Under the pieces are notes generated by a model. The model did no database searches. It worked only from the letters and a program-made list of their open reading frames with translations, and was not told where the DNA came from. From Prevotella scopos JCM 17725 (GTDB lineage: Bacteria > Bacteroidota > Bacteroidia > Bacteroidales > Bacteroidaceae), in NCBI RefSeq assembly GCF_018127785.1, contig NZ_CP072390.1:1116001-1180000 (forward strand): DNA of 64,000 nucleotides. The letters run 5' to 3'. The translations under genes and the position numbers were made by a program. Of the stretch, positions 15,756 to 62,727 are shown in pieces. The first letter of the stretch is position 1. Every line of letters begins with the position of its first letter.

Positions 15756-16153
15756 GGGCTTGTTTGGATTTGACGGCAAGACGAGATGGTACGTAAGCAC
15801 GCGGAGCATCGTTGACTGGCTCCTAAATCTCAGTTATCGAAAATTTAATTGGCGAAAACAATTACGCTCTCGCTGCCTAACCGAAGTACAGTAGGTTACT
15901 GGCTTTATCCGACTATTAGATAGTTGGACGAGACATCGCTCCGAGGATGTTGTTCCGAATCCGGAGAGTAAGCGATGCAGGTTCAATCGGAAATAGTCAG
16001 TGTATGCCTCGCTGCACTGATGAAATTTTAGAGGATAAGATGTCGGTTGGTGGTCTAGGTCTTGCCGACATACGAAAACCAAAGTCTGGAATAAACGTGT
16101 AGAAAGCGTATGGTTTCCTTGTGCGGACGTGGGTTCGACTCCCACCAGGTCCA
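15756..16153 (+). ncRNA. ssrA: transfer-messenger RNA, tag GENNYALAA
   Basis: A one-piece tmRNA of about 398 bases that rescues stalled ribosomes. The 5' end GGGCTTG (15756-15762) pairs with CAGGTCC (16146-16152) in a 7-bp acceptor stem with two G-U pairs; A16153 is the discriminator and CCA is not encoded. TTTGACGG near the 5' end and GTGGGTTCGACTCCCAC (T arm) are typical. The tag reading frame at 15851-15880 gives GENNYALAA then TAA, a normal ALAA-ending degradation tag of Bacteroidota. A strong hairpin terminator follows at 16191. Confidence 0.96.
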
Positions 16154-16190
16154 CTCGTATACTCTCAATAGGGGTATGAAAAGAATTAGA

Positions 16191-55735: not shown

Positions 55736-56773
55736 ATGACAATGACACTACAAAACTTCCTCACAGAATGGCATAATGATAATTCACAACTCCTTGTGCA
55801 CACCAGTGGCTCAACTGGTAAGCCCAAACCGCTGTGGGTAGAGAAGCAACGTATGCTCAATTCAGCCCGCATCACTTGTGATTTCTTGGGTTTGAAGGCT
55901 AACGACACCGCCCTACTCTGTATGCCACTCGACTACATTGCTGGAAAGATGGTAGTGGTAAGAAGTATTGAGCGCAACCTACACCTATTGAGCGTGACAC
56001 CTTCTGGGCATCCTCTCTCTGACAAGTCTTTATCCGAAGCAGGTATTTCCAACGAGGAGATAACCTTTGCTGCAATGGTACCACTGCAGGTTTATAACTC
56101 TCTGCAAATACCTGAGGAGCGTGAGCGTTTGCGCCAAATCCGTCATCTTATTATAGGCGGTGGTGCTGTCGATAATAAACTTTCAGCTGCCTTACACGAT
56201 TTCCCTAACGCTGTTTGGAGTACCTACGGGATGACAGAAACCCTCTCACACATTGCTCTCCGCCGCTTAAATGGACCCAATGCCAGCGAATGGTACAAGC
56301 CTTTTGATGGTGTGAAAATATGGCTCAATGAAGAAGGTTGTCTTGTCATAGACGCTCCTGCCGTTTGTGCCTATCCATTAGTAACCAACGATAGGGCTGA
56401 GCTTTCTCCTTCACATATGGAAAATGGAATAGAAACACCTTGTTTCCGTATCCTCGGACGAAAAGATAACGTAATTGATTCGGGTGGTATCAAAATTCAA
56501 ATTGAGGAAGTTGAAAGCCGCTTGAAATCTTTCCTAACATCCGATTTTGCCATAACGAGCTGCCCAGACGAGCGTTTTGGTGAAACGGTGGTTTTACTTA
56601 CGACTGATAGCAGCATCGATGCTATTAATGAGATTTGTCAACAACATCTCCCAAAGTTCTGGCAACCTCGCTTCATCTTCCACACGCCGACTCTCCCTAA
56701 AACAGGTAATGGAAAACCAGCAAGAGTCGAGATAAAGACTTTAACACATCAGTTATATAAAACAAGAGGATAA
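55736..56773 (+). CDS. menE: o-succinylbenzoate-CoA ligase, short form
   Basis: A 345-residue AMP-forming ligase, about 100 residues shorter than E. coli MenE because the N-terminal part before the P-loop is missing. HTSGSTGKPK comes at residue 22, YGMTETLSHI near 162, GRKDNVIDSGGIKIQ near 242 and the C-terminal catalytic lysine in PKTGNGKPARVE. All catalytic motifs are present, so it is likely functional. Last gene of the men cluster. Confidence 0.9.
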   Translation: MTMTLQNFLTEWHNDNSQLLVHTSGSTGKPKPLWVEKQRMLNSARITCDFLGLKANDTALLCMPLDYIAGKMVVVRSIERNLHLLSVTPSGHPLSDKSLSEAGISNEEITFAAMVPLQVYNSLQIPEERERLRQIRHLIIGGGAVDNKLSAALHDFPNAVWSTYGMTETLSHIALRRLNGPNASEWYKPFDGVKIWLNEEGCLVIDAPAVCAYPLVTNDRAELSPSHMENGIETPCFRILGRKDNVIDSGGIKIQIEEVESRLKSFLTSDFAITSCPDERFGETVVLLTTDSSIDAINEICQQHLPKFWQPRFIFHTPTLPKTGNGKPARVEIKTLTHQLYKTRG

Positions 56774-56905
56774 TATCACGTATATACTTACACCATGTAA
56801 GAATAGTGTTAAGCAACAGCATTTTATTCTTCTCACTGTTTACTCACTACATCAACTTTCACATCTTCACAGCCTTTATTGAACAATGAAAAAAGTATTC
56901 TTTTG

Positions 56906-56937
56906 TTTGCCATAACCATTTTTTTTAGCTAATTTTG
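56906..56937 (+). promoter_or_regulatory. promoter of corA (TTTG, 20 bp, TAATTTTG)
   Basis: TTTG at 56906-56909 and TAATTTTG at 56930-56937 are 20 bases apart. Transcription near 56943 gives a leader of about 124 bases. Confidence 0.75.
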
Positions 56938-56966
56938 CATCCACAAAACCAATACGTAATTATCAA

Positions 56967-57002
56967 ATGGACGATTATCACGCGGAAAATTTTAATCTGT
57001 AA
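56967..57002 (+). CDS. candidate leader peptide upstream of corA
   Basis: ATG at 56967 encodes MDDYHAENFNL and stops with TAA at 57000-57002. It begins with two Asp residues and has one further Glu. It ends directly before the structured part of the corA leader. Short ORFs occur by chance, but its position is like corL in the Salmonella corA leader. No strong Shine-Dalgarno sequence is seen. Confidence 0.45.
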   Translation: MDDYHAENFNL

Positions 57003-57066
57003 GCGTGAGGATTACAACAGAAAGTTGCTAATCCCCACACTATTATTTAACTATGGAGATTAGCTA
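57003..57066 (+). promoter_or_regulatory. structured corA leader with alternative hairpins
   Basis: Hairpin A: GTG (57005-57007), GGATT (57009-57013) and CAAC (57015-57018) pair with GTTG (57024-57027), AATCC (57030-57034) and CAC (57036-57038). Hairpin B: GCTAATCCCC (57027-57036) pairs with GGAGATTAGC (57055-57064), 9 of 10 positions, and hides the GGAG and the bases up to the AUG at 57067. A and B cannot form together. In addition CACGC inside the short ORF (56979-56983) can pair with GCGTG (57003-57007), competing with A. Confidence 0.6.
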
Positions 57067-57993
57067 ATGAAGACATATTGGAACATTAACGGAACCCTTA
57101 ATACGATTAAGGAATGGCAGCCTAACTGCTGGATTCAGGTAACTTGCCCAACAGAGCAAGATCAGCAAGAACTCGAAGACACTTTTCATATCCCAGACTA
57201 TTTCTTATCGGATATTAGCGATACCGATGAGCGAGCACGCTATGAATATGATGACGGTTGGATGCTGATTATCCTCCGTATTCCTTACGTAAAGGAAATT
57301 CGATCAAGGACGCCTTATACAACAGTTCCGTTAGGTATCATTCACAAGAAAGATGTGACGATCACAATATGCAACTTCGAAACAAATATGATGCTTGACT
57401 TCGTCAGCTATCAACAAAAGAGAAATGAGGGCTTCACTGATTATGTTGACCTCATCTTCCGTCTCTTCCTTTCTTCTTCCGTTTGGTACTTAAAACGACT
57501 GAAGCAAATCAACACATTGATTGAAAAAGCTAAACACAACTTGGATAGAGGTGTGGACAACGAGAGTCTGATAGGACTGAGTCGTCTGCAGGATTCGCTT
57601 ACCTACTTCATCACATCCATTCGTGGTAACGAGAACCTTTTGGCTAAATTAAAGTTTAAGTTGCAGATTGACGAGTTGGATGCCGACCTGATTGAAGACG
57701 TAAATATTGAGATGTCACAGGCACGAGAGACAACGAGCATCTACTCTGACATTCTTGAATCAACAATGGATACTTACTCAAGTATTATCAACAACAACAT
57801 GAACACCGTGATGCGTACGCTCACTTCGGTATCCATCGTTATGATGTTGCCAACGCTTATATCCTCCCTATTCGGTATGAACCTTGTCAATGGCTTGGAA
57901 ACAAACCCATGGGGATTCCCTGTTGCAATGTTCTTATCAGTCGTTGTATCGGCTGCATCATGGTGGATTTTACGCCGTAAACGCCTACTTTAG
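57067..57993 (+). CDS. corA: CorA-type magnesium transporter
   Basis: A 308-residue transporter. A long cytoplasmic alpha/beta domain and helices (1-240) precede two C-terminal membrane segments. The pore motif GMN is in SSLFGMNLVNGLE near residue 277, and the last residues are positively charged (RRKRLL), as in CorA. It forms a pentameric Mg2+ (or Co2+/Ni2+) channel. The leader is unusually long and structured for this window. Confidence 0.93.
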   Translation: MKTYWNINGTLNTIKEWQPNCWIQVTCPTEQDQQELEDTFHIPDYFLSDISDTDERARYEYDDGWMLIILRIPYVKEIRSRTPYTTVPLGIIHKKDVTITICNFETNMMLDFVSYQQKRNEGFTDYVDLIFRLFLSSSVWYLKRLKQINTLIEKAKHNLDRGVDNESLIGLSRLQDSLTYFITSIRGNENLLAKLKFKLQIDELDADLIEDVNIEMSQARETTSIYSDILESTMDTYSSIINNNMNTVMRTLTSVSIVMMLPTLISSLFGMNLVNGLETNPWGFPVAMFLSVVVSAASWWILRRKRLL

Positions 57994-58148: not shown

Positions 58149-60038
58149 ATGATGGACTCTCATGAAAATGCCCTGAATCAGGGTACAAAAGAAGTTAAGC
58201 TGTCTGAAAAAGCTACAACCAACGAAACAACGGAAAAATCCGAAGCGCAGAATGTCAATGCTGATACAGCAGCTAAAAGCCCCGATCAGCCAGTTGAAAC
58301 ACAGCCTAAGGACGAGGCAGAAAACCTTGCCACAAAGGCATATAACTCAAAGAAGGAGATTATAGAACGTCTGAAGGCTATCGTTGATAGTGACGAGACA
58401 CCTGAAAAGGCAGAAGTAGAACACTTGAAAACAGTTTTCTACAAGTTACATTTTGCTGAGCGTGAAGCACAACAGAAGACTTATCTTGACAATGGTGGTG
58501 ACCCTGAGAAATATCAGGTACTACCTGATGAGGATGAAGAAATCTTCAAGGCGGAGATGACCATCATTAAAGAAAAACGCCAGAAAGCTTTCCTTGCACT
58601 CGAAGAGGAAAAACAACAGAACCTACAGAAGAAAGAAGCTATCATCGAACAAATAAAGGCGATGGCTACTACTCCTGATGAGGCTAACAAGAACTTCGAC
58701 CAATTCAAGAAACTTCAGCATGAATGGAAGGAATTTAAAACGGTTCCTGCTGAAAAGTCAAACGAACTATGGCGTAATTATCAACTATATGTTGAGCAGT
58801 TCTATGACTTGTTAAACCTCAACCGTGAAGCACGCGAATACGACTTCAAGAAAAACCTTGAGAAGAAGACAAAGCTCTGTGAGGCAGCTGAGAAGTTGGC
58901 CGATGAGCCAGATATTATCAGTGCTTTCCACCAGTTACAGGAACTTCATCAGGAATATCGTGAGACAGGTCCAGTCGCTAAAGAACTTCGCGAACAGATC
59001 TGGACACGCTTCAAGGCAGCTAGCACTGTAATCAACAAGCGCCATCAACAGCACTTTGAAACACTGCGGGCACGTGAGGAAGAGAACCTAAAAAAGAAGA
59101 CTAACCTATGCGAAAAGGCTGAAGAATTGGCTAAGAAAGAGAACAAGACGTCAGCTGAATGGGAGAAAATAACCAAAGAGATCATAGCTATCCAGCAAGA
59201 GTGGAAGACCATTGGGTTCGCTCCACAGAAGATGAACGTTAAGATTTTTGAACGTTTTCGTGCTGCATGTGATGATTTCTTCGGTAGAAAGGGTGAATTC
59301 TTCAAGCAAATGAAAGAACAATTTGCTGAGAATGCAGAAAAGAAGAAGGCACTTGTTGAAAAAGCCAAAGCTTTGAGCGAATCTACTGACTGGAAGGCTA
59401 CATCTGACAAACTCATTGCTTTGCAGAAGGAGTGGAAGACCATCGGTATGGTTCCTAAGAAGATTGGCGACCAGCTTTGGAACGATTTCCTCGCTGCTTG
59501 TAATCACTTCTTCGAGGCTCGTAATGCTATACACGCTGACTCTCGTAATGAGGAATATCAGAATCTCAGTAAAAAACGTGATATCATTAGCCAGCTGAAA
59601 GAACTCGTTGAGCAGGCTGGTGAGAACCTTCACGAGAAAGTACAGCAGCTTACTGAACAATATAATAAGGTGGGACATGTTCCTTATAAGGAAAAAGATA
59701 ATCTCTACAAGGAATACCACGAGGTATTGGACAAGATTTATAAAGATCTTCATATAACAGCAGCTCGCAAACGAGTTGACAACTTCCGCAATAACCTCAA
59801 GAAGGTAGCTGATCGTGGTGTTGATGCACTCGACAACGAGCGTGGCCGTTTACTCCGCCGCTATGAGCAGTTGAAGCAGGAAATAAACACTTATGAAAAT
59901 AACCTTGGCTTCCTTAACATCAGCTCTAAAAAGGGGAATAGTCTGATTGACGAGATGAACCGCCGTATCCAGAAACTCAAAGACGATATGGATGAGGTGA
60001 AGCAAAAAATCAAGGCTATCGATGCTGAAAATAAGTAA
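58149..60038 (+). CDS. DUF349 repeat protein
   Basis: A 629-residue, highly charged, helical protein. An acidic, Thr/Glu-rich N-terminus (1-65) is followed by five to six DUF349 repeats of about 75 residues, recognisable by WKEFKTVPAEKSNELWRNY, YRETGPVAKELREQIWTRF, WKTIGFAPQKMNVKIFERF, WKTIGMVPKKIGDQLWNDF and YNKVGHVPYKEKDNLYKEY. A coiled coil ends the protein. The function of DUF349 is unknown. It could start at 58149 or 58152 (two ATGs). It is followed by an IS1182 element. Confidence 0.88.
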   Translation: MMDSHENALNQGTKEVKLSEKATTNETTEKSEAQNVNADTAAKSPDQPVETQPKDEAENLATKAYNSKKEIIERLKAIVDSDETPEKAEVEHLKTVFYKLHFAEREAQQKTYLDNGGDPEKYQVLPDEDEEIFKAEMTIIKEKRQKAFLALEEEKQQNLQKKEAIIEQIKAMATTPDEANKNFDQFKKLQHEWKEFKTVPAEKSNELWRNYQLYVEQFYDLLNLNREAREYDFKKNLEKKTKLCEAAEKLADEPDIISAFHQLQELHQEYRETGPVAKELREQIWTRFKAASTVINKRHQQHFETLRAREEENLKKKTNLCEKAEELAKKENKTSAEWEKITKEIIAIQQEWKTIGFAPQKMNVKIFERFRAACDDFFGRKGEFFKQMKEQFAENAEKKKALVEKAKALSESTDWKATSDKLIALQKEWKTIGMVPKKIGDQLWNDFLAACNHFFEARNAIHADSRNEEYQNLSKKRDIISQLKELVEQAGENLHEKVQQLTEQYNKVGHVPYKEKDNLYKEYHEVLDKIYKDLHITAARKRVDNFRNNLKKVADRGVDALDNERGRLLRRYEQLKQEINTYENNLGFLNISSKKGNSLIDEMNRRIQKLKDDMDEVKQKIKAIDAENK

Positions 60039-60110: not shown

Positions 60111-61971
60111 GAGGGTGTGTCAAAATGGACACATCCTCTTTTTACCCCCCCCCTTTACCTTGTCTACCATATAAATCATTATTTACTATAGCTATGCTGC
60201 TAATTTCATATAAAATGATTTATTGGTCTTTAAATAGCCTATATAAACTTGTATAGAGCATCTGAAGGTGACTAAAAGTACCTCCATAATGGCTTTTAGT
60301 TCCTTGAGATTAGTTTTTCTGCACATTTTTCCTATGTTAAAGGCAATGGCAAAGAATGCAAAGTCCATGTTGACCTTGTCTTTCCCAAAATGCCTAAACC
60401 TCTTGTAGGCTTTATTATATTTTGTTTGTCCAAAAACAGCTTCAGGTTCTATGCACCTTCGTCCTCGATGCTTGATGCCTTCTTCCGAGGTCAGTAGTTC
60501 CCGTGCCTTTTGTTTATAGTGCTGTAGTTGGTGGTTTACTTCTATAATTCTGTTCCCTCTTGCCTTAAAACATGAGCCTCTCAACGGACAACCATCACAG
60601 TGTTCTGCCTGATAACGTACGCTGTAAGTAACGAATCCATTAGAGGTTAGGGAACGCTTCATACCTATACGCCTCATGTGCTGTCCCATAGGGCAGACGT
60701 AGAAATCCTGTTCCTTATTATAATAAAGGCTTGCGGGACTGAATGGGTTAGGTGTGTAGCGTGGACGCTGCTCTTTATGGAAGTAGTTATACTTCACATA
60801 GGCTTCCATATTATGTACGTCCATGAACAGATAATTCTCCTCGGAGCCATACCCTGAATCGGCTACGACTGTCTTGGCATAACGATGATAGCGTGATTTG
60901 AAAGACTCCAAGAAAGAAGGTAGTGTGAGTGTATCGGTACGATTGGCATAGAGTGCAAAGTCGGTGATAAACTGGTTCTCCGTTGCTATCTGCAGATTAT
61001 ATCCAGGCTTAGTCTGTCCGTTCCGCATAGCGTCCTCCTTCATGTGCATAAACGTGGCATCAGGGTCGGTCTTGCTGTAGGAGTTTCTCTCTCCCATAAT
61101 CTCAAGGTGTTGGTCATACTCCTGGAGTTTATTACGTTTCTTCTCAAGTTCTTTAAGCTGTTTTTTCTTGGTTCTAACAGCCTGCTTCTCTTCTTTTGTC
61201 TTAGGTTTAGGGATTGATTCCAAAGACTTGTTCAATTCCTCGGATATCTCATCAAGCAGAGCTGCAGTGAACTCAATACCTTCTTTCTTAGCGGCATTAT
61301 CCTGCGCAATGACATCGTCAACCTGAAGCAAGAGTGTGCGTATTTGTTCCTGCAACTTGGTGCGGTTCTTTTCCACGGTTCTCTTCCAAACGAAGGTATA
61401 CTTGTTAGCTTTCGATTCTATTTTTGTGCCGTCAATATATTCAACGTCAAGACTTATCAAACCTTTGGCTGCAAGTACTAATACGACTTGTGTGAATATA
61501 TTGTTGATTTCCTTTTTCACACGATTACGAAAACGATTGATGGTAATAAAATCAGGCTGCTCATATCCTGCCAGATAGATGAAATGAATGTCACGCTTGA
61601 GAAGTGACTCTATACGACGGCAGGAATAGATATTATTCATATAGGCGTAAAGAATCACCTTAAGCATCATTTGTGGATGATAAGGCTTGCGACCACTGGG
61701 CTTATAAAGTTTGTAGACATTATCCAACATAAGATTATCCACCAAGGCGTCTAAAAGACGAACAGGGGCATCTTCTGCGATATCCTTATCGATTCTTTGA
61801 GGAAAAAGAATCATTTTCTTGTGTATGTAAGAACGAAAGTGTATCTTTGTCATAATGAGATTTTTTTAATGCCTAAAGGTACAAAAACTTTAGGAAATAG
61901 CAAAGCCCTGGCTTGAGAAAGTCGGGGCTTTGTGCATAAAAAAGAGGATGTGTACATTTTGACACACCCTC
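60111..61971 (-). mobile_element. IS1182-family insertion sequence
   Basis: A 1861-bp element. The ends GAGGGTGTGTCAAAATG and its complement give terminal inverted repeats of about 32 bases with one mismatch. Each end is itself a near-palindrome (GAGGGTGTGTC...GACACATCCTC), so a strong hairpin forms at both sides. The flanks (AAAG and TTAC) show no target duplication. A run of nine C (60145-60153) lies just inside the left end. Confidence 0.9.
60192..61853 (-). CDS. IS1182-family transposase
   Basis: A 553-residue DDE transposase. The N-terminal GRKPYHPQMMLKVILYAYMNNIYSCRRIE region is typical; catalytic residues lie in YIDGTKIESKANKY, VVADSGYGSEENY and the late RCIEPEAVFGQTKYN. A cysteine cluster (CDGCPLRGSCF) precedes the end. 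The frame is intact. Upstream (61872-61895) CCTAAAG and CTTTAGG form an inverted repeat, and CAAAGCCC...GGGCTTTG (61901-61932) a second hairpin that may block incoming transcription. Confidence 0.95.
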   Translation of the reverse strand: MTKIHFRSYIHKKMILFPQRIDKDIAEDAPVRLLDALVDNLMLDNVYKLYKPSGRKPYHPQMMLKVILYAYMNNIYSCRRIESLLKRDIHFIYLAGYEQPDFITINRFRNRVKKEINNIFTQVVLVLAAKGLISLDVEYIDGTKIESKANKYTFVWKRTVEKNRTKLQEQIRTLLLQVDDVIAQDNAAKKEGIEFTAALLDEISEELNKSLESIPKPKTKEEKQAVRTKKKQLKELEKKRNKLQEYDQHLEIMGERNSYSKTDPDATFMHMKEDAMRNGQTKPGYNLQIATENQFITDFALYANRTDTLTLPSFLESFKSRYHRYAKTVVADSGYGSEENYLFMDVHNMEAYVKYNYFHKEQRPRYTPNPFSPASLYYNKEQDFYVCPMGQHMRRIGMKRSLTSNGFVTYSVRYQAEHCDGCPLRGSCFKARGNRIIEVNHQLQHYKQKARELLTSEEGIKHRGRRCIEPEAVFGQTKYNKAYKRFRHFGKDKVNMDFAFFAIAFNIGKMCRKTNLKELKAIMEVLLVTFRCSIQVYIGYLKTNKSFYMKLAA

Positions 61972-62656: not shown

Positions 62657-62727
62657 TTGGGATACCCGGACTCGAACCAGGAATGACAGGACCAGAATCT
62701 GTAGTGTTACCATTACACCATATCCCA
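62657..62727 (-). tRNA. tRNA-Gln (anticodon CTG)
   Basis: A 71-base cloverleaf on the minus strand. TGGGATA pairs with TATCCCA (acceptor), GTGT with ACAC (D arm), ACAGA with CCTGT (anticodon stem, one mismatch at the loop), and CTGGTTCGAGTCCGG is the T arm. The loop TTCTGGT puts CTG at 34-36, reading CAG. CCA is not encoded. The gene ends with a hairpin terminator. Confidence 0.9.

Follow-up and report, generated by a model that had tools for sequence, protein, structure and literature searches.

The DNA analysed here is a 64,000-nucleotide stretch of Prevotella scopos JCM 17725 (the window), in which corA occupies positions 57067–57993 of the plus strand. Its 308-residue product carries the Pfam CorA domain (PF01544, E 1.7e-49); among structures, its profile matches 13 PDB sequences, the best of which is the Mg2+ transport protein CorA (E 1.4e-33), and GMN is invariant across nine aligned CorA sequences. 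The gene is flanked upstream by an AMP-binding enzyme gene (55736–56773) and downstream by a DUF349 gene (58149–60038). Two genes 3′ of corA, the minus strand carries a transposase gene (60192–61853; Pfam DDE_Tnp_1_6 at E 1.6e-35, DUF772 and DDE_Tnp_1). Across the whole window, Rfam reports only two features at gathering score, a tmRNA (15756–16156, plus strand) and a tRNA (62657–62727, minus strand).

A preliminary description made from the letters alone had proposed a promoter, an 11-codon upstream open reading frame (uORF) and two mutually exclusive hairpins in front of corA, and all of these could be located where it had placed them. The putative promoter (56906–56937, plus strand) combines TTTG (56906–56909) with TAATTTTG (56930–56937), elements of the Bacteroidota type; of 183 related leaders, 162 have TAnnTTTG no more than 80 nt 5′ of the uORF, compared with 80 of 1830 shuffles. 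The uORF (56967–57002, plus strand) encodes the acidic leader peptide MDDYHAENFNL. Predicted hairpin A (57005–57038, plus strand) pairs 57005–57018 with 57025–57038 and folds at a minimum free energy of −13.9 kcal/mol (z −5.3 relative to dinucleotide shuffles). Predicted hairpin B (57027–57064, plus strand) pairs 57027–57036 with 57055–57064, and its region folds at −10.6 kcal/mol (z −3.0, likewise); for the whole leader, z is −2.2. Segment 57027–57036 is common to both stems, which exclude one another; A would act as an anti-sequestor (ON form) and B as a sequestor (OFF form). Shine-Dalgarno sequences are known to be little used in Bacteroidota. GGAG stands at 57055–57058 before corA, within the arm covered by B, and GGAG, GAGG or AGGA falls within the last 20 nt of 146 of the 187 leaders compared below.

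Two further candidate elements were considered. The first, missed in the preliminary description, is an optional helix 1:2 between segment 1 inside the uORF (56973–56983, plus strand) and 57003–57013 (−11.9 kcal/mol), which gives the window's leader a 1:2 / 2:3 / 3:4 layout. As a general part of the leader it is not supported: the helix, formed here between TCACGC of the ORF and GCGTGA of hairpin A's 5′ arm, is weak or missing in other types, and swapping its partners gave z −4.0 overall and −0.4 (MDDYH), −1.6 (MDDYP) and −1.3 (others) within peptide classes. The second, the ORF ATG GAG ATT AGC TAA (MEIS) at 57053, which touches the corA start, was excluded from the model because only 32 of the 187 leaders have ATGGAG within their final 20 nt.

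Conservation of the uORF and its peptide

At the protein level, CorA was detected in 176 of 200 genus genomes. With 56890–57110 as a DNA query, 97 of 200 genus genomes gave a match, a figure that is not a leader count because many matches span only the first 24–46 bases of the ORF and some only the promoter stretch. We examined 110 genus upstreams, made up of 30 initial loci and 80 more drawn from the upper and middle match ranks, with the lowest ranks left out; loci from searches outside the genus are best matches. Counts are quoted for distinct upstreams and for the strict pattern ATGGA[CT]GA.

By this measure the uORF precedes corA in 108 of 109 distinct upstreams of the genus, the sole exception (L127) reading MIDDYPAD, and in 78 of 79 named Prevotella-group genomes, with one further upstream being too short; the named set includes Prevotella multiformis, P. 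veroralis, Hoylesella oralis, Segatella buccae, Hallella seregens and Xylanibacter ruminicola. The comparison of Prevotella upstreams that had been suggested as a check thus finds the acidic short ORF kept, and the lack of conservation of ORF and stems in close relatives that would have spoken against the proposal is not what was observed. The uORF is present in 43 of 48 upstreams of the family sample (five of the 48 loci, L170–L174, belong to the genus, and some genomes recur between sets), 22 of 29 of the order sample, 4 of 15 of the class sample (one of these four from the same family) and 7 of 29 of the phylum sample. Widening the pattern post hoc for L127 and L165 (MDGVPD) gives 109 of 109 in the genus and 23 of 29 in the order. 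The L030 peptide, MDDYYAENFTV, is visible only with a longer upstream. CorA relatives without the uORF are present in the family, order, class and phylum samples, and most of the more distant corA genes are without the leader; bar L127, L165, and L282 at 82%, the CorA proteins behind upstreams without the uORF are 28–48% identical, as distant as many that bear it.

Chance placement of the pattern is rare. Of 1870 upstreams shuffled by mononucleotide, 7 carry the uORF at −60 to −260; ahead of the other ORFs of at least 120 residues in the same loci it occurs in 4 of 271 cases, all four being the corA uORF seen via overlapping frames. With 12 of the 199 distinct upstreams having no match to the pattern, 187 distinct leaders form the set used below. 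The distance from uORF to corA is mostly 90–125 nt; L030, L123, L157 and L229 fit less well because in them more than 200 nt separate the uORF start from corA.

The peptide is conserved chiefly at its start. Asp occupies position 2 in all 187 leaders, as the pattern itself demands, and position 3 in 182, with Glu there in 4; position 4 holds Tyr in 167. Codon 3 is GAT in 131 leaders, GAC in 51, GAA in 4 and GGT in 1, and these changes are nearly all synonymous; an acidic ORF kept despite third-base changes is what the preliminary description had named as support. An additional acidic residue at positions 4–8 is found in 152 of 187 leaders and a proline in 85 of 187. The uORF spans 8–27 codons (11 codons in 103 of 187), position 5 is variously H, P, Y, L or N, and the rest of the peptide varies too, as in MDDYHAEN, MDDYPAD and MDDYLSN or, more distantly, MDDSNPRTY, MDDGPYH, MDEGPYH and MDDYHPER.

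A separate observation concerns codon choice. A rare NCG codon (GCG, CCG or TCG) falls in codons 4–7 of 173 of 187 leaders (56982–56984 in the window), compared with 26 of 187 for codons 8–11; Ala-6 is encoded by GCG in 141 of 143 cases, and GCG, CCG and TCG make up 8–9% of their codon families in the window's long ORFs. One guess is that the conserved NCG codon serves as a planned pause.

Outside the order, the uORF recurs in genus g218 (family f172, another order of the class), which may be Flavobacterium. Seven CorA orthologues of this genus in the phylum sample (L318, L319, L321–L325) are preceded by an MDD uORF encoding MDDYYSEMLN (twice), MDDYYYSLVLN (twice), MDDYDSLVLN, MDDYYWQR or MDDSQRKYY, and in f172 no such CorA was found at E 1e-40 in one genome each of 99 other genera. 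Since the combination is confined to one genus against these 99, corA and its leader may have moved together into g218. Another arrangement is seen in family f121, where ATGGACG (ATGAACG in L354) lies directly before the corA ATG in all eight orthologues (L347–L354, 31–32% identity). There, an out-of-frame ORF beginning MDDD (MNDD in L354) overlaps the corA start by 7 nt. Start-overlapping ORFs are also seen at corA of L204, L205 and L208 (MDDD), of L212 (MNDD) and of L206 (MEDD, family f135). The start-overlapping MDDD ORF may represent another arrangement of the same principle. Nine CorA genes of family f187 (41–44% identical) are without the leader. A wider regulon was not retained as a candidate: the uORF pattern with at most one mismatch occurs once in the P. 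scopos genome, as does a reversed control pattern, and two MgtE loci above the cut-off, from other families, have no ATGGAYGA in the upstream stretch examined.

Comparative support for hairpins A and B

To compare the stems, 54 leaders were aligned with MAFFT, namely the window's own plus 53 drawn from 61 that are no longer than 125 nt, with eight of the longest left out; the structures scored for pairing and for two-sided changes were taken from the window's row. For B, 87.8% of cells are paired, against 27–45% for slid versions of the helix, and 62 cells carry two-sided changes, against 24 ± 3.4 in shuffles. These changes involve 9 of the 10 pairs, where shuffles average 6.2 and reach this level in 4 of 500 cases. 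For A, 70.2% of cells are paired (44–53% in slid versions), with 58 two-sided-change cells against 38 ± 7 and no shuffle of 500 as high; its nine pairs with a two-sided change are equalled by 164 of 500 shuffles. RNAalifold recovers B unprompted and does not recover A from the alignment. The covariation that had been named as a check is thus clear for B and weaker for A, for which the count of pairs stays at shuffle level.

Partner swapping among 149 leaders corroborated B, with its energy rising from −12.93 to −8.48 kcal/mol (z −19), a score that is not inflated because the last 22 nt were fixed without selection. The corresponding rise for A, from −16.98 to −9.49 kcal/mol, is inflated because its arms were chosen as the best hairpin of each sequence. 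The search for hairpin A was confined to the interval from −4 to +13 nt around the first base of the stop codon, so its nearness to the uORF stop is partly an artefact. Of the 187 leaders, 186 have A and B overlapping by 3 nt or more; the mutual exclusivity proposed for the window's corA leader is retained, with compensatory changes. Across the alignment, the conserved letters are those of the ORF start and the pairing arms, and the loops vary.

Ribosome position and hairpin choice

To ask which way the switch would turn, we used folding models that represent a ribosome by barring the nucleotides it covers from pairing. In the naked leader neither form is clearly ahead, with mean P(A)/P(B) of 0.41/0.46 (0.43/0.54 in the window). 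An early ribosome covering the first 24 nt shifts these values to 0.58/0.33 (window 0.99/0.00), and a ribosome at the stop codon to 0.04/0.69 (window 0.12/0.93). Loss of A under the ribosome at the stop follows by construction, given that the 5′ arm is covered; the takeover by B and the early lead of A do not. From the early to the terminating ribosome, the predicted accessibility of the ATG together with the 16 nt before it changes by −0.095 in the real leaders and, in the opposite direction, by +0.018 when the sequence after the uORF is shuffled.

The preliminary description had proposed that a ribosome at the uORF stop would favour B and that one leaving early would favour A. The modelled hairpin choice agrees with this, but the accessibility of the window's own RBS region does not, being 0.28 with the early ribosome and 0.33 with the ribosome at the stop. 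This order is off because the RBS region has an alternative partner in the 3′ end of the ORF, a pairing that we judge likely to be incidental since near relatives such as L002 do not have TTTTAATCT there. Among the g218 leaders, L323 alone follows the switch model; in six of the seven the start-adjacent stretch is paired in the predicted fold and blocking the start does not increase accessibility.

Taken together, a model for the corA leader emerges. Transcription would start just after TAATTTTG, and ribosomes would load on the uORF. A ribosome reaching the stop codon would cover the 5′ arm of A, whereupon the shared segment would pair with the corA RBS region as B and corA would be held back. 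A ribosome pausing or dropping off in the first codons would instead let A form; A would take up the anti-RBS segment, B would be blocked and corA would be translated. We consider it very probable that translation of the uORF sets the hairpin choice. As the trigger, we favour with moderate confidence Mg2+-dependent destabilisation of the ribosome, and the signal would most likely be low Mg2+, because these peptides, which open with Met-Asp-Asp and in most cases carry another acidic residue and in many a proline, resemble MgtL and MgtQ, peptides of the type that destabilises the translating ribosome when Mg2+ is scarce. No MgtE was found in the P. scopos genome or in 11 others of the genus, an absence that we count in favour of the model. 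As a whole, a translational attenuator of corA responding most likely to low Mg2+ is the best explanation and, on balance, a probable one; uORF translation, ribosome drop-off, the Mg2+ signal and the effect on CorA are the parts of it that we infer.

Relation to known leaders and competing explanations

The closest described system that we found, judged by analogy of the peptide and of the RBS-occlusion read-out, is mgtQ of Salmonella. There, mgtQ is an 8-codon uORF between mgtC and mgtB with Asp2 and Glu5, on which translation aborts and thereby frees the RBS of the transporter gene; stem-loops 1:2 and 3:4 alternate with 2:3, the mgtB RBS is hidden in 3:4, experiments show mgtQ translation to be inverse to that of the transporter, and loss of the mgtQ start abolishes mgtB expression (PMC8092293). 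Read from their sequences, the Bacteroidota leaders likewise have a very short uORF with early acidic codons, mutually exclusive hairpins of which one is predicted to hide the RBS of the transporter gene, and a 3′ gene whose CorA family membership indicates a Mg2+ importer; in both systems less completion of the uORF would give more transporter. The likeness is one of described layout, in another phylum, gene and place, and no resemblance in sequence was noticed: mgtQ is intergenic, enterobacterial, part of a PhoP-controlled operon and serves MgtB, and helix 1:2 is not supported as general in the Bacteroidota leader. In mgtQ, loss of the start lowers the transporter, whereas our model predicts no clear direction because neither hairpin clearly leads in the naked leader.

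Two further enterobacterial leaders bear comparison. At mgtL-mgtA, ribosomes drop off MgtL at low Mg2+ and EttA relieves this; acidic starts destabilise ribosomes, EttA acts on acidic starts including MgtL, and two acidic residues alone are not always enough for drop-off (PMC11282234). MgtL shares with the present leaders an acidic, proline-rich start and the logic of low-Mg2+ abortion switching on a Mg2+ importer, and differs in its EPDP motif, Rho-dependent termination, transporter (MgtA) and phylum. The corL-corA pair of Salmonella and E. coli was the parallel drawn in the preliminary description. It holds in that corL is a uORF in a corA leader with two alternative structures, as predicted here too, and with inverse uORF and corA expression. 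The parallel is only fair in that mgtQ is closer; corL is read out through Rho, starts with UUG in E. coli, belongs to another phylum and is poorer than mgtL in acidic residues and prolines, and loss of its start raises corA (PMC11552253). The open-access literature, judged by titles and the openings of abstracts, yielded no report of a leader for corA or Mg2+ in Bacteroidota. Leader-peptide attenuation is described for amino-acid operons in a Flavobacterium psychrophilum transcriptome (PMC9723704), whose main text mentions neither corA nor magnesium. The proposed attenuator of corA most likely evolved independently.

The foremost competing explanation keeps the uORF and hairpins and exchanges the signal for a general slowing of elongation, rescue of acidic stalls in an EttA-like or ATP-linked manner, a shortage of charged tRNA-Asp or slow decoding of the rare NCG codon. 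The concentration of NCG in codons 4–7, in a genome stretch whose ORFs seldom use it, and the action of EttA on acidic starts (PMC11282234) lend it some weight; we regard it as rather unlikely, given that the controlled gene is a CorA-type Mg2+ channel, that both described acidic uORFs of such a layout serve Mg2+ transport, and that residue 5 varies. A transcriptional read-out, in which uORF translation would set Rho access as for corL and mgtL and B would matter little, draws on the enterobacterial corA and mgtA leaders, which work through Rho (PMC11552253, PMC11282234). We consider it improbable here, as B is the better supported helix and covers the RBS region, and the leader mostly offers only 90–125 nt between uORF and corA.

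A Mg2+-binding riboswitch with an incidental ORF is very improbable. RNA helices in general are stabilised by Mg2+, and M-box and other Rfam Mg2+ riboswitches also control Mg2+ transport genes from the leader, but these are ligand-binding RNAs, and the leader has no Rfam match at gathering score; at E ≤ 1 there are three sub-threshold minus-strand matches to unrelated families and nothing credible. The conserved letters here mark an ORF start and pairing arms around variable loops, with synonymous changes in codon 3. Short ORFs are common in leaders, yet a chance meeting of one with unrelated hairpins can be dismissed in view of the conservation in relatives, the shuffle controls, the compensatory changes and the partner-swap test. 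The conserved corA leader is almost certainly a functional element.

Returning to the attenuator with low Mg2+ as its signal, we lean slightly towards a broader reading in which Bacteroidia use the ribosome as a Mg2+ sensor for corA: abortion of translation on an acidic MDD peptide would permit corA translation through exclusive hairpins. This would be a convergent counterpart of mgtL and mgtQ, unrelated to them in sequence, that moved with corA to another order and has a second layout in one further family. If true, Mg2+ sensing via acidic leader peptides would be no enterobacterial speciality and would have a separate origin in a phylum that is plentiful in the mouth and the gut. The leader would then offer a compact translational switch in Bacteroidota, and its very short uORF, mostly of 8–16 codons and known in more than 200 natural versions, would offer material for studying why ribosomes abandon translation.
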